A stretch of DNA of 64,000 nt from contig JAQUVW010000002.1 of the NCBI GenBank assembly GCA_028693235.1, forward strand, positions 124,001 through 188,000. The letters run 5' to 3'. A program made the translations under genes and the position numbers. The notes under the pieces are model-generated. The model searched no databases, was not told the DNA's origin, and saw nothing but the letters and a program-made list of their open reading frames with translations. This document shows positions 1 through 56,464 of this stretch, piece after piece (within the stretch, counting starts at the first letter, position 1; each line of letters starts with the position of its first letter). Origin of the DNA: Candidatus Gastranaerophilales bacterium (GTDB lineage: Bacteria; Cyanobacteriota; Vampirovibrionia; Gastranaerophilales; Gastranaerophilaceae).

Positions 1-227
1 AAAGATGATGATTCTTGAATTGACACATTGCCTATAGGTATTTTAACTACCTTAACCAATATATTTTTATTTGCTTGAACAATTTTTATAACATCACCCT
101 CTTTTAGTTGTTTTGAGGGCTTTGCGACATTATCATTGACATATATTCGCCCTTGGTCAGATACATCGTTAGCAACCGTTCTTCGTTTTATAAGTCTTGA
201 TACTTTTAAATATTTATCTAATCTCAT
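1..227 (-). CDS. S4-domain RNA-binding protein, RqcP/Hsp15-like (3' part cut by window edge)
   Basis: The visible N-terminal part, about 75 residues, begins [19 protein letters not shown] and continues with [20 protein letters not shown], which is the S4 RNA-binding fold of the RqcP (YabO)/Hsp15 family. Known members bind the 50S subunit and take part in ribosome-associated quality control. The ATG overlaps the stop of the upstream DciA-like gene by one base (TAATG), which implies translational coupling in an mnmE-dciA-like-rqcP operon read leftwards. The C-terminus runs off the window, so full length is unknown. Confidence 0.75.
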
Positions 228-553
228 TATTTTTTCCAATTTTTATAATCAAATCTAATATCTTCAACTTTTAAATCCAGTTCTTCTGCCTTTTGAGAAA
301 TAATTTCCATCAAATTTTTTTTTGATAAAAAAAGTTCATTTGCAATAAAAGAATTAGCACATAAAACTGTCAAAACATTTTTATCGTTTAATTCAATAGG
401 TCTTGAAAGTTTAGAAATCTTTTCACCGACCAAATCTGCCCAAGAATTAAAAAAAATATCCTTATTGGTTTCCTTTGGTGCATTATAGCTAATGCCTAGG
501 GCTCCAATAATATCTTTTATCGATTCAAAATCACTATATAAGATTTTTTTCAT
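227..553 (-). CDS. DUF721/DciA-like protein
   Basis: This 108-residue protein has the DUF721 pattern: a W-x2-LVG core ([19 protein letters not shown]), a short basic stretch, and a terminal [11 protein letters not shown]721 includes DciA, the ancestral loader of the replicative helicase DnaB in bacteria without DnaC/DnaI. A helicase-loading role is likely but inferred from family only. It lies one base downstream of mnmE and overlaps the S4 gene, so the three are co-transcribed. A candidate origin lies about 6.5 kb to the right. Confidence 0.7.
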
Positions 554-5928: not shown

Positions 5929-6594
5929 ATGATAAATTTGATAAAAAAACTACTTGATTACCTTTATAAACAAAAGTGCTATTTTTGTTCTCAATCTCTC
6001 GAAAATACGATTTTTTGTTCAAAATGCTATGATAAAATTAAATTTTTAGAATATAAAAAGCTTAATAATATTGATAGTTGTGCTATATATGGTGCAGTAT
6101 ATTACAAAGATATTATTAAAAAATTAATAAGAGGAGTCAAATATCACAATCAAAAAGAGCTTGCAAAATATCAAGCTAAATTGATGTTTGAATATTGGAA
6201 AAAAATACAATGCAAAAATGAAATTTATACAGTTGTTCCTGTTCCTTTACATAAAAACAGAATAAAAAAAAGAAAATACAACCACATGGATTTAGTAGGG
6301 GAAGAATTTTGCAAACTAACCGGATATTATTTCTGCCCTGATTTTGTTATCCGAGAAAAAGACACAAAACCACAATACAAATTAAATAAAGAAGAAAGAG
6401 AAAATAACCTGAAAAATGCTTTTTCTATAAATAAAGAACATAAACCCAAATCTCCCATCTTATTAATAGATGACATAACAACGACAGGCTCAACTTTTTA
6501 TGAAATAATTAAATTATTAAACAAAAATAGCATAAAGGATGTAACGGCTTTTGCAACAGCAATTCCCGAGCATAATAATTTTTACATACAATGA
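5929..6594 (+). CDS. ComF-family phosphoribosyltransferase-like protein
   Basis: ComF proteins are needed for DNA uptake in competent bacteria but are also widespread in others. The 221-residue product has four Cys in two pairs (C17, C20, C30, C33) that match the zinc finger at the ComF N-terminus, then VVPVPLH, KRKYNH, and the PRPP loop ILLIDDITTTGST near the C-terminus. I chose the ATG at 5929; a TTG ten codons upstream is in frame but lies before the -10 element. It overlaps the next gene by four bases (ATGA). Confidence 0.85.
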   Translation: MINLIKKLLDYLYKQKCYFCSQSLENTIFCSKCYDKIKFLEYKKLNNIDSCAIYGAVYYKDIIKKLIRGVKYHNQKELAKYQAKLMFEYWKKIQCKNEIYTVVPVPLHKNRIKKRKYNHMDLVGEEFCKLTGYYFCPDFVIREKDTKPQYKLNKEERENNLKNAFSINKEHKPKSPILLIDDITTTGSTFYEIIKLLNKNSIKDVTAFATAIPEHNNFYIQ

Positions 6595-6890
6595 TATTAA
6601 AAGAATTTGCAGAATATTTACAAAATAATATAGAAGACTCATCGGTATATCTTTTAAACAAATGGATAAAAGATATACTAGAAACGCCTCCTCAATCAAA
6701 AGTAGAACAAGTTATCCATGCAGAAATATATATAGCAAAAAATAAATATAACGACACATTGCTAATAGGAAAAAGTGACAGCGGAAGAAAACTAATAGAC
6801 ACTTTATACAATTTTGCATTGAGTTTTGAACAACAAAAACTTGCTCGATGGTTACATACAAAAAAACCTGATGATTTTAAAAATTGTTAA
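6591..6890 (+). CDS. Hypothetical protein downstream of comF
   Basis: The 99-residue protein overlaps comF by ATGA and so is translationally coupled to it. It is mainly helical, without signal peptide or membrane segment (AEYLQNNIEDSSVYLLNKW, then IYIAKNKYNDTLLIGKSDSG). I do not recognise a domain. A hairpin follows its stop codon, marking the end of the transcript. Confidence 0.65.
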   Translation: MILKEFAEYLQNNIEDSSVYLLNKWIKDILETPPQSKVEQVIHAEIYIAKNKYNDTLLIGKSDSGRKLIDTLYNFALSFEQQKLARWLHTKKPDDFKNC

Positions 6891-6927
6891 AACATGCACT
6901 ATGAGCATGTTTCCATGCCTTTTTTTT
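6891..6927 (+). terminator. Probable terminator of the comF operon
   Basis: AACATGC (6891-6897) and GCATGTT (6905-6911) form a 7 bp stem with a 7-base loop right after the stop codon. A run of eight T follows at 6920-6927, eight bases beyond the stem. Confidence 0.5.
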
Positions 6928-6970
6928 GTATTATAATAAATTATTTTATTTTAACGACTTGTTCAAAACC

Positions 6971-7039
6971 TGTGTATAACTGTTTATAAATTATTTTTTT
7001 CTGTTTAAATTTTTATATTTTTTCAGATACTTATAAACA
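6971..7039. other. Cluster of DnaA-box-like sites, candidate oriC
   Basis: TGTGTATAA at 6971-6979 is an exact match, on the minus strand, to the TTATNCACA DnaA box. TGTTTATAA at 6981-6989 and TTATAAACA at 7031-7039 each differ from it at one position. They sit in an AT-rich non-coding stretch (6891-7371) directly before dnaN, the place where some cyanobacteria have their origin. I see nothing else in the gap except a doubtful short frame at 7089-7298. Confidence 0.4.
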
Positions 7040-7371
7040 CCCCTTTTGCAAAAAATAATAAGCTTGTACAAAAAAACCAAATAATAAAATGTTTTCTACA
7101 AGTTTTAAAAAAAGCTATACGGTTGATTTAATTGAAAGACATGGTTTTTTCTACAGCTTTTTGATTCTTTATTACTTATTATTATTTTATTTTATTTATT
7201 TAAGAGAACTACTTTTTAAAGATAAAAATATAACCTTCAAAAGTTACCTTTTTGAAAATTCTGATTTATGGTTAATTTTTTTTAAAAAGTTTATATAATA
7301 CCATGTTTCGGTTATAATTTTTTAATAAAGCTTTAATATTTGTTTAAAGAGAAGATTATAGAGGGAAAAAT

Positions 7372-8490
7372 ATGCTTTTTACAATTGATAGAGATTCGTT
7401 GCTAAATAAATTGAAAATTGTTGAAAAAATAACAATACCACGTGGTATTCAACCTGTTTTAGCAAACATATTGTTTGAAGCAACGGAAGGTACCCTCAAG
7501 TTAAGTGCTACAGACCTTGATATTTCTATAATTACTAATACAATGGCTTCTGTAAAAGAGGAAGGAAAAATTACACTTCCAGCTAAAAAAACTTTTGAAA
7601 TTGTTTCTAAACTACCTGACAAACCGGTTGATTTTTCATTGAATAAAGATACAAATGTAGTAACAATAACATGCGGACATTCAAAATTTGATATAATAGG
7701 TATTTCCGCAGAGGAATTTCCTGTTTTAAGCACAGAAGAAGAACTTTCCAAAAAAGAATCTATCGAAATTGATATGGAACCTTTTGTTAAATCAATAAAA
7801 CATACAGTTTATGCTGCAGCAAATTATGAAAACAGAAATATAATAAGTGGTGTTTTTTGTAACATTGCAGATGAAAAGCTAGAAATGGCAGCAACAGATG
7901 GTAATAGATTAACAAGAATTATTGAAAATATTAAAAATAAAGACGAAAAAACAGCAAAAATTGTTATTCCGTCAAAAACATTGCAAGAATTTTTAAGAGT
8001 CAGCTCTTTTGTAGCAGAAGAAAAAGTTGCATTGCACGTAGATTCTGCAAAAGTTATTATTCAAACAAAGAGCTTTTTGATTATATCAAGATTGTTAGAG
8101 GGCGAATATCCTCCTTATAAACAATTAATTCCTGCAAAAACAGAAAAAACAGCCATAGTTAAAAGAGATGATTTGATAAGTGCATTAGAGAGAGTCTCTT
8201 GTATGGTTAATGATAGAACCAGCATTGTAAAATTTGTATTTGAAGAAGGAAAATTGTTATTGAAAGCGGAAACTCCAGATTCAGGTACATCAGAAGATAT
8301 GATTGATGTAGAGTATGAAGGTGAAGAACTTGCAATCGCATTTAATTATAAATATGTATTGGATTCAGTTAAAATAATGGAAAGTAAAAATACTCAAATA
8401 GGATTAGGTGGAAGTCTTTCTGCAACTATATTTAAACCAGATAGTGAAGAAGATTATTTGTGCTTGATAATGCCGATTCAAATTAGATAA
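7372..8490 (+). CDS. dnaN: DNA polymerase III beta subunit (sliding clamp)
   Basis: The 372 residues are full length for the three-domain clamp that tethers polymerase III to DNA. Clear family marks are SATDLDISI near residue 45, the GEYPPYKQLIP segment of domain two-three, and the conserved C-terminal LIMPIQIR. AGAGGG lies a few bases before the ATG. No dnaA is visible in the window; the gene follows the DnaA-box cluster and leads into thrB, pgk and typA on the same strand. Confidence 0.97.
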   Translation: MLFTIDRDSLLNKLKIVEKITIPRGIQPVLANILFEATEGTLKLSATDLDISIITNTMASVKEEGKITLPAKKTFEIVSKLPDKPVDFSLNKDTNVVTITCGHSKFDIIGISAEEFPVLSTEEELSKKESIEIDMEPFVKSIKHTVYAAANYENRNIISGVFCNIADEKLEMAATDGNRLTRIIENIKNKDEKTAKIVIPSKTLQEFLRVSSFVAEEKVALHVDSAKVIIQTKSFLIISRLLEGEYPPYKQLIPAKTEKTAIVKRDDLISALERVSCMVNDRTSIVKFVFEEGKLLLKAETPDSGTSEDMIDVEYEGEELAIAFNYKYVLDSVKIMESKNTQIGLGGSLSATIFKPDSEEDYLCLIMPIQIR

Positions 8491-54402: not shown

Positions 54403-56464
54403 ATTCTACCTCTTTAAAAGATAATTTTGCTTTTTTAATCAATTCATCTGCACTTAGTGCGTCGTTAGGATAAAGTGCCGTTGAGTACAATATAGCACAC
54501 TCTTCGAACTCTTTTCCACAAAGTTTTATGTATCCTTCAAGTTTCTTTTTATTAAAATCTAATGCAAACGAATCCATTTCGATTGAGTAATAAAAATAAT
54601 ACCTGAAATCGCCGTCTATATATATAAAATCACGGCTGTTGGTGGTTTTTTTAATAAGTTTTTCCGCAACAACTTTGTCCAAGAAAGAAGCTGATGCTAT
54701 AATCTTTTCTTTCAAAGCTATTAATCCGAGTGATGTATGGTTTTGTTTTGCTCTTGAAATGTCTTGTCCCATTTGCATAATAAAGGTTTCTTCTTCGTTC
54801 ATTATAGGGATTGCGAGTGAAAATTTTGAGCCAACATTTACTTCGCTTTCAAGCCAAATAAGACCTTTGTGAGTTTCCATAAGTTGTCTTGCAATTGGAA
54901 GCCCCAAGCCTGTTCCTCCGATTTTTCGGCTTAATGAGTTTTCAATTTGTTCAAATTTGTCAAAAACTTTGTTCAAATCTTCATGTGCGATACCGATTCC
55001 TGTATCTGCGACTTCAACTTTTACATATTCTCTAAACAAATTTTTTGGTAATTCGGCAAAAAACGGGACTTTTAATATATCTTCTCTTTTAATTTTTGAT
55101 GTGGAAATTGTAATCTTTCCGTTTTCCGGGGTGAATTTTATTGCGTTAGAAACAAGGTTTGTTAAGACCTGCTCTATTCTTTGAGAGTCTATATAAACAG
55201 AATCAATATCTCTTTCAAGATTTAAAATAAGTTCAATATTTTTGTCTTTGGCTAAATTTTCAAAAGTATTTTTGACAAATTCAATCGGCGAGTTTACATT
55301 AGCTTTTTCAAATCTGAAATCCATTTTCCCTGCTTCGATTTTAGACAAGTCCAAAAGGTCGTTTATTATGGCGGAAAGTCTTGTTACATTTCGTTTTGCC
55401 ATATTTAAAAACTTGTCCATGTTTTTAGTTATTTCGCCTGATTTTCCGCTCAATACTATGTCTAAGGAGTTTTTTATCGCAGTTAAAGGCGTTCTCAATT
55501 CGTGTGAAACTATCGAAATAAATTCTGATTTTAGACGCTCTAACTTTTCAAGTTTTATGTTTGTGTCTTTAATTTCTTCGTATAAAATGGCACTTTCAAG
55601 TGGCAAAGATGCTTGTTTTACAAGTGTTTGGAAACAGGTTGTGTCTTCTTGCCCAAAGTCGTTTTCTCTAAAAACTTCGATAATTCCGAAAAATTTGTCT
55701 TTTATATTAATCGGGGCAAAAAGATTGTCAAAATTAAACACGTTAAGGTCGTATTCTTCAAATTGGTGTTTGATATTTTTTATGACTTTAATATCAGCAA
55801 CGGCAGGATTTATGGAAAACAAGGTTTTGTAGCTCAAAATTGCCCGAAGTTTTATTGCATCTTCCAGTCTTTTTGAAATTGGGTATAAAGAGTTTATTAA
55901 CAGGGTTATATCCGTTGGGTCATTGAAAACAAGCGAATAACACAGAGAAAAACTCAAACTTTTTTCCAACCCGTCCATCATTATGTCAATAAGTTTCGTT
56001 TTATCAAGAGAGCCCGCCAGTTGTGTGCTTGTGTTGTATAAAACATTTAGTTGGTAAAGGCTTTTTGCCAAATCCTTATTGTTCGCCGACAAGCCTTCTA
56101 AAGATTCTTTGTGTTGCAATGAAGCATTAATCGTTGCAAGAAGCAAACTATCCTCGAAAGGTTCTTGTATATATGCGTTTGCATATTTTAAAATCTCATT
56201 TTCAAGTTTTCCTTCATTAAATATCAAAATGGTTTGGATATTTTTTGTTTGAGTTTGGATTTTAATTTTTCGGCAAACATTATTTATGTCATATTTTTTG
56301 GTCGCCAAATCGATTAAAATAACATCAACGTCGTTTGCTTTTACAGTTTCAAAAATTTCCTCATCGCTATTGAATGAGATTAGTTCGTGCCCGTGCTTGT
56401 AAAACAGCTCACTTGCCTTATTGATTTTTTTGTTATTGTCTGTAATAAGTAATATTTTAGCCAT
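54380..56464 (-). CDS. Hybrid sensor kinase: receiver-like, GAF, HisKA, HATPase, degenerate GGDEF-like tail
   Basis: Of 694 residues, 1-120 are receiver-like (DVILIDLATKKYD, with the Asp kept) and about 130-290 look like GAF (LYNTSTQLAGSLDKTKLIDI). SHELRTPLTAIKNSLDIVL is the H-box near 320, and NLVSNAIKFTPENGKITIST plus GGTGLGLPIARQLMETHKG form the ATP-binding domain. After residue 550 a further domain follows the GGDEF pattern (FIMQMGQDISRAKQNHTSLG, later SADELIKKAKLSFKEV) but has IDGDF where GGDEF should be, so it cannot be a normal cyclase. No membrane segment. Confidence 0.9.
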   Translation of the reverse strand: MAKILLITDNNKKINKASELFYKHGHELISFNSDEEIFETVKANDVDVILIDLATKKYDINNVCRKIKIQTQTKNIQTILIFNEGKLENEILKYANAYIQEPFEDSLLLATINASLQHKESLEGLSANNKDLAKSLYQLNVLYNTSTQLAGSLDKTKLIDIMMDGLEKSLSFSLCYSLVFNDPTDITLLINSLYPISKRLEDAIKLRAILSYKTLFSINPAVADIKVIKNIKHQFEEYDLNVFNFDNLFAPINIKDKFFGIIEVFRENDFGQEDTTCFQTLVKQASLPLESAILYEEIKDTNIKLEKLERLKSEFISIVSHELRTPLTAIKNSLDIVLSGKSGEITKNMDKFLNMAKRNVTRLSAIINDLLDLSKIEAGKMDFRFEKANVNSPIEFVKNTFENLAKDKNIELILNLERDIDSVYIDSQRIEQVLTNLVSNAIKFTPENGKITISTSKIKREDILKVPFFAELPKNLFREYVKVEVADTGIGIAHEDLNKVFDKFEQIENSLSRKIGGTGLGLPIARQLMETHKGLIWLESEVNVGSKFSLAIPIMNEEETFIMQMGQDISRAKQNHTSLGLIALKEKIIASASFLDKVVAEKLIKKTTNSRDFIYIDGDFRYYFYYSIEMDSFALDFNKKKLEGYIKLCGKEFEECAILYSTALYPNDALSADELIKKAKLSFKEVEYEKSINS

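Follow-up and report, generated by a model that had tools for sequence, protein, structure and literature searches.

The locus studied here raises the question of where chromosome replication begins in a gut relative of the cyanobacteria whose dnaA and dnaN genes lie apart, and of which DNA motif its initiator would read there. The draft genome comprises 2,099,696 bases (2.10 Mb) in 7 unordered contigs, and the window, the whole 64,000-nucleotide stretch analyzed, corresponds to C2:124001-188000. In this genome dnaA follows aspS on contig C7, and dnaN is distant, on C2; by DnaN identity (up to 74%), the closest named records are MAGs of Candidatus Gastranaerophilales. The terms order, class and phylum are used below as kinship labels assigned to the relatives' genomes. 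We take the class to be Vampirovibrionia, and most of the genomes from other classes are presumably Cyanobacteriia. The original prediction placed a candidate origin at 6971-7039, on the strength of three sites resembling TTATNCACA in the DNA preceding dnaN. The features discussed below are listed in window coordinates; bit scores come from a lineage matrix trained on 80 loci with this genome excluded.

227..553, minus strand: dciA-like helicase-operator gene (Pfam DciA, E = 1.2e-10)
6891..7371, no strand: intergenic region with the candidate oriC, 481 bp, 20% GC, from a 99-aa ORF to dnaN (sequence; skew minimum at 7099)
6960..6968, minus strand: DnaA-box-like TTTTGAACA of the minus wing (15.4 bits)
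6971..6979, minus strand: TTATACACA, the exact site of the original prediction, 11 bp from the 6960 box on the same strand (10.1 bits)
6981..6989, minus strand: TTATAAACA, weak box, 10 bp from the 6971 box (6.6 bits)
7031..7039, plus strand: TTATAAACA, very weak box-like site (4.1 bits)
7065..7073, minus strand: DnaA-box-like TTTTGTACA (12.4 bits)
7092..7100, plus strand: DnaA-box-like TTTTCTACA, exact lineage consensus and top score of the region (17.0 bits)
7147..7155, plus strand: DnaA-box-like TTTTCTACA adjoining the trios, box of the putative unwinding module (13.3 bits; the sole genome-wide match to box, spacer and trios)
7156..7168, plus strand: 13-nt spacer from box to trios (sequence; the mode in relatives is 12-14 nt, 52 loci)
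7169..7184, plus strand: DnaA-trio-like repeats TTATTA-C-TTATTATTA (complement 3'-AAT-5'; sequence, with trio enrichment at the same place in relatives)
7151..7340, no strand: AT-richest 150-bp windows of the whole stretch, with A+T up to 84%; presumed unwinding element (composition)
7372..8490, plus strand: dnaN, DNA polymerase III sliding clamp (Pfam DNA_pol3_beta, _2 and _3)

The gap is bounded on its far side by terminator-like hairpins on both strands (6889-6918) and by the 99-aa ORF (6591-6890, plus strand), which has no Pfam or NCBIfam match and overlaps the 3' end of a comF-like gene. This ORF contains a box-like TTTTGAACA at 6824-6832, and its GAGTTTTGAACA string recurs at a similar distance from dnaN in four of the six close relatives listed, which probably reflects common coding sequence. 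A promoter-like site lies at 7290-7318, upstream of dnaN. Generic repeat and promoter scans gave nothing decisive. One relative has a second, distant DnaN-like frame with 28% identity (G010:C3:35081-36133).

The original prediction held that cumulative GC skew should turn near 7.0 kb, and in the sequence covered it does. Over the contiguous 124 kb of C2:84001-208000, the raw cumulative minimum falls at window position 7099, inside the gap; the other contigs were sampled, so that skew was covered for 42% of bases across the draft. All four raw skew rows of C2 to the left of the window are negative (-0.151, -0.095, -0.095 and -0.028), and those from the window rightwards range from -0.002 to +0.153, nine of the ten being positive and the tenth being -0.002. 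The gene-based cumulative skew at four-fold sites also reaches its minimum at dnaN. At these sites, plus-strand genes have skews of -0.24 to -0.45 on the left of the window, as against -0.21 to +0.12 from its start rightwards, and minus-strand genes have -0.03 to +0.21 on the left and +0.11 to +0.51 on the right. On C3 the skew turns the opposite way near 20 kb, which marks a likely terminus. Raw skew hinted at a second minimum on C5, which was rejected: at four-fold sites counted separately for the genes of each strand, this contig keeps one sign. On C4, the final 20 kb have an ambiguous sign change (mean four-fold skew -0.10 to +0.10), and a second skew minimum may lie at that contig end. 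Two relatives were also inspected. In G046, from another family of the same order, the raw skew turns sharply at dnaN, from -0.167, -0.074, -0.104 and -0.107 on its left to +0.126, +0.160, +0.115 and +0.157 on its right. The turn is blunt in G077, within about 20 kb of dnaN (47.9-49.1 kb); in the first 80 kb, the raw minimum is at 31.2 kb and the gene-based minimum at about 38 kb, which is 10-18 kb from dnaN. The identification of the gap before dnaN as the chromosomal replication origin is well supported.

The three sites that first drew attention to the gap are present as placed: TTATACACA at 6971-6979 (minus strand) is exact, and the two copies of TTATAAACA, at 6981-6989 (minus strand) and 7031-7039 (plus strand), have one mismatch each. 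Their setting was also correctly described as non-coding, AT-rich (20% GC) and preceding dnaN (7372-8490, plus strand). With up to one mismatch, TTATNCACA occurs three times in the 481-bp gap, compared to 0.84 in 1000 dinucleotide shuffles (P = 0.045), and three such sites fall inside 69 bp in 0.1% of 1000 dinucleotide shuffles. They form a real, modest cluster that is part of a larger one, and by themselves they would not establish an origin. The accompanying caution that TTATNCACA is weak on its own was apt, as the window holds 95 copies with at most one mismatch versus 87 ± 10 expected, showing no enrichment. Scored with the lineage matrix, the exact site reaches 10.1 bits, and the TTATAAACA pair scores low (6.6 and 4.1). 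Stronger elements lie outside 6971-7039, at 6960-6968, 7065-7073, 7092-7100 and 7147-7184, the last being the likely unwinding site, about 110 bp past that interval. An origin before dnaN is upheld by the skew and the box cluster, but the three sites are not its core, and TTATNCACA is the wrong box for this lineage, whose relatives show TTTTCTACA together with TTTTGAACA and TTTTATACA.

Scored on the motif of the relatives, the gap reaches 68.2, compared to a maximum of 35.0 in 1000 shuffles, and it contains five sites of at least 9 bits, compared to a maximum of three in 1000 shuffles. Among 723,312 sampled bases, the best 300-bp box window is the dnaN gap, with 8 sites and 87.5 bits, and the next reaches 51.9. 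The minus-strand group at 6960, 6971 and 6981 includes two of the three original sites, and TTATACACA is the one exact TTWTNCACA-type site in the gap. No TTTTCCACA occurs in the gap, and its only occurrences in the window are at 54512 and 58710. Total counts are close to the controls: TTTTCTACA with one mismatch occurs 61 times versus 49 over the whole window, a count reached by 7 of 100 shuffles, and TTTTSWACA occurs 431 times genome-wide, barely more than the 380 of the reversed control. Therefore, the signal of the origin is clustering rather than total count.

The lineage motif itself was obtained by a de novo 9-mer search in the 28 of 30 fetched loci that have at least 300 bp before dnaN. 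The most over-represented 9-mer upstream of dnaN in these loci is TTTTCTACA, with 83 copies versus 0.57 expected. In the seven loci of this genome and its six close relatives, TTTTGAACA (21 versus 0.40) and TTTTCTACA (9 versus 0.17) are enriched. TTTTCTACA is found 81 times versus 0.38 in the rest of the family (27 usable loci of 29; present in 14 loci), and 54 times versus 0.15 in 16 loci from other families of the order (present in 14 loci), where CTACTACTA is also enriched (16 versus 0.03, in 9 loci). The matrix reads (A)(G)TTTT[C/A/G][T/A]ACA, with T at 0.76, A at 0.21 and C at 0.02 at position 6, C at 0.89 at position 8, and C or G at position 5 in 0.65 of the sites. Boxes occur at a density of 6.0 per 450 bp at dnaN (75 loci), compared to a background of 0.32.

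The arrays of the relatives show a regular design. In the 52 loci with the module described below and at least 600 bp of upstream sequence, boxes located 101-250 nt before the box of the module are on the minus strand in 162 of 180 cases, and those from 100 nt before that box through the module are on the plus strand in 150 of 164. The commonest distance between neighboring boxes on the same strand is 11 bp (61 of 226), followed by 22 bp (31). Two exact copies of TTTTCTACA within 30 bp of each other are found in 4 of 13 genomes (12 of these 13 lack a plus-oriented module at dnaN) and are absent from this genome. The region before dnaN contains two boxes or fewer in 12 of the 81 loci of the order. 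Two of these relatives, G001 (L275) and G007 (L276), have an array built in the same way at about 5.0 and 5.5 kb on the upstream side of dnaN, respectively, with other genes between, and the distant array of G007 carries a trio module. Because these arrays sit about 5 kb away, the origin would move inside the dnaN neighborhood, at least in G001 and G007; in some loci of the order it appears to have moved or degenerated. From its position, the trio geometry and the replacement of TTTTCCACA, TTTTCTACA is predicted to be the DnaA box of the order.

One element of the gap combines a box with DnaA-trio-like repeats. The available part of PMC8287927 defines the BUS (basal unwinding system) by a DnaA box and three or more trios with a central A (3'-NAN-5') that come no more than 16 bp after it, and gives 13 as the most common spacer. 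The pattern TTTTNTACA, 9-24 nt and YTAYTAYTA has a single match in 2.10 Mb, at C2:131147, which is window position 7147, and its reversed control has none in the genome. Within the 600 bp preceding dnaN, 56 of the 81 loci of the order carry a looser pattern in plus orientation; 40 rounds of shuffling gave 0.175 on average and never more than 1. The 81 exclude rows G004, G023, G053 and L188, all four too short, as well as G027 and G054. By genome set, the counts are 30 of 49 and 26 of 32, where species may recur across the two sets. The spacers of the relatives, 12-14 nt in 45 of 52 loci and 11-16 nt in 49 of 52, conform cleanly to the published BUS rule. In this genome, the box at 7147-7155 is followed by 13 nt, two TTA, one C and three TTA, so that the first trio lies within 16 bp and the uninterrupted run of three begins after 20 nt, beyond the published limit of 16. 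This AT-only run with its one-base interruption is weaker than the CTACTACTACTA of other families. Across the 64 kb, the 150-bp windows with the highest A+T content begin at 7151-7191. The plus-oriented module is absent at dnaN in 25 of the 81 loci, among which G018 and G033 carry a module in the opposite orientation. In G033 (L103, G033:C2:39401-41383), dnaA and dnaN are divergent neighbors, and the box and trio module between them points to dnaA.

The DnaA of this genome, a full-length match to the Bac_DnaA domain, has an altered recognition residue. We aligned domain IV of 54 DnaAs of the class (the best 30 loci of 56 matching genomes and 24 others) with that of E. coli. At E. coli position 433, the class has Lys in 43, Thr in 4, Arg in 3, Gln in 2, Asn in 1 and Gly in 1, and Asp in 0 of 54, while all 20 DnaAs of other classes (20 of the 32 other-class genomes of the phylum with a DnaA match) have Asp. 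The DnaA of this genome has Lys at this position, and the canonical Asp433 of domain IV is absent; the domain IV entries 3pvp (M. tuberculosis) and 1j1v (E. coli) both have D at the aligned position. Arg399 is kept in 50 and His434 in 52 of the 54 class DnaAs. Most DnaAs of family f1 have one residue fewer before the recognition helix (e.g., FGKKHTT versus FGGRDHTT), and in an f1 subgroup Pro at position 423 is often replaced by Glu. No DnaA match was found in 12 of 240 class genomes, four of them with a completeness of 90% or more and a contamination of 5% or less; dnaA loss or assembly gaps are possible explanations.

A corresponding shift is seen at position 6 of the box. In 18 loci before dnaN from other classes, TTWTNNACA has C at position 6 in 49 of 51 boxes (0.9 expected), T in 1, A in 0 and G in 1; TTTTCCACA occurs in 10 of these 18 loci, not all of which are origins. 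In the 81 loci of the order, the counts (expected) are 19 C (7.6), 365 T (28.3), 152 A (32.8) and 11 G (6.1), and 517 of 547 boxes have T or A. The lineage matrix does not fit the canonical TTWTNCACA with C at position 6. The shift extends to families f8/f13 (7 loci; 13 T, 3 A, 1 C and 3 G) and f9 (7 loci; 17 A, 4 T, 2 C and 1 G), and the 8 loci of families f10-f12, f14 and f15 show no clear box class at dnaN. We infer that the changes at residue 433 and at position 6 belong together. That the residue change caused the base change is a reasonable reading of the sequences, from one clade contrast representing one or few evolutionary events.

Taken as a whole, the data are very probably best explained by an origin before dnaN that uses lineage-specific DnaA boxes and a DnaA with an altered residue 433; binding, unwinding and loading are predicted from sequence. 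DnaA would bind the box array, with the consensus GTTTTCTACA alongside TTTTGAACA, TTTTATACA and TTTTGTACA, arranged in relatives as two wings, in which distal boxes are mostly minus and proximal boxes plus, often spaced by one helical turn (11 bp). Starting at the last plus box (7147-7155), DnaA would cross the 13-nt spacer onto the single-stranded triplets at 7169-7184 and open the AT-rich DNA towards dnaN. A DciA-type loader would then deliver the replicative helicase; the DciA-like gene reported near the locus is indeed present at 227-553 on the minus strand (Pfam DciA, E = 1.2e-10). In the DnaA of the class, Asp433 has given way to Lys or another non-Asp residue, and position 6 of the box has gone from C to T or A.

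The array could instead be a transcriptional control element for dnaN, bound by DnaA or another factor, with the true origin elsewhere. It does lie directly upstream of dnaN, near the promoter-like site at 7290-7318, but this reading leaves unexplained both the skew turn exactly at the array and the DnaA-trios at canonical spacing, and the array is about 5 kb away from the gene in two relatives that lack boxes at dnaN; we consider this reading improbable. An origin at dnaA, as in many bacteria, is barely credible: dnaA is the default indicator gene in the available text on Ori-Finder 2022, but here it sits on C7 beside aspS, no TTWTNNACA was found in the 500 bp before it, and the boxes preceding dnaA in 25 loci have a mean density of 0.24 per 450 bp, so that a dnaA-proximal origin was rejected. 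It is also quite improbable that some protein other than DnaA binds TTTTCTACA and has taken over initiation or nucleoid organization at the origin. TTTTCTACA differs from the published DnaA boxes with which it was compared, as given in the available parts of those papers, but upstream of dnaN it takes the place that TTTTCCACA, one base apart, has in other classes of the phylum, the geometry of box, spacer and trios is that of DnaA, and the full-length DnaA that is present has its recognition helix altered in the same clade.

Acceptance of a dnaN-proximal origin read by DnaA leaves the meaning of the position 6 change to be weighed. We lean slightly towards a class-wide rewiring, in which Asp433 was lost (mostly to Lys) and base 6 of the box went from C to T or A, a pairing that may not cross-talk with the canonical one and would have been kept across families. 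Mere drift in AT-rich genomes, with no relation to residue 433, is less likely but still to be reckoned with. The order is AT-rich (20-25% GC in the gaps), and a change from C to T or A is what such a composition would favor; against this, position 8 keeps its C (0.89), C or G makes up 0.65 of position 5, and the shift to T is 12.9-fold above shuffles of the same composition. AT-richness alone fails to explain the shift, because families f8/f13 and f9, with upstream stretches of about 40% GC, are shifted too.

The locus belongs to a known type of element, here with a lineage-wide switch in DnaA-box recognition that is apparently undescribed. No earlier description of the lineage box or of a DnaA-box switch was found in the open-licence literature, judged largely by title. 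The main text of the 2013 Melainabacteria genome paper does not mention GC skew, dnaA or replication; neither Melainabacteria nor Vampirovibrio is named in the available part of PMC7198777, which deals with cyanobacterial DnaA, and in that of PMC7111523 Melainabacteria appear only as one complete genome. The results would place an origin in a lineage represented mostly by draft genomes, and supply the right box for searching, where a search with TTATCCACA or TTTTCCACA would find at most one near match here. The motif could serve coverage-based growth estimates in gut metagenomes, and the clade would amount to a clean natural experiment in DNA recognition by DnaA.

Comparison with known systems, drawn from the available parts of the papers cited, sets the candidate origin among several relatives in design. 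In Synechococcus elongatus PCC 7942 and Cyanothece ATCC 51142, oriC adjoins dnaN and has TTTTCCACA boxes (PMC4674748, PMC7198777). The candidate origin resembles this cyanobacterial oriC in phylum, in its position upstream of dnaN with dnaA elsewhere, and in its TTTT...ACA box, but differs in having T or A rather than C at position 6 and, in this genome, Lys rather than Asp at residue 433 (PMC4674748, PMC7198777). Like the oriC of Thermotoga maritima, it combines non-canonical boxes with altered DnaA recognition residues, but it keeps the 9-mer frame, unlike the 12-mer AAACCTACCACC of that species (PMC4285127, PMC7561715). The TCATTCACA box of Helicobacter pylori and the Epsilonproteobacteria is likewise a class-wide variant accompanied by changes in helix 5 of domain IV, but there C is kept at position 6 and residues 433-434 are highly conserved (PMC5043019, PMC8235120, PMC4285127). 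Much as in the BUS of Bacillus subtilis and most bacterial origins, a box is followed by a spacer near 13 nt and trio-like repeats on the same side; unlike in the BUS, the box here is TTTTCTACA, two mismatches from TTATCCACA, and the trios are TTA in a run interrupted by one base, with the unbroken three beginning after 20 nt (PMC8287927).
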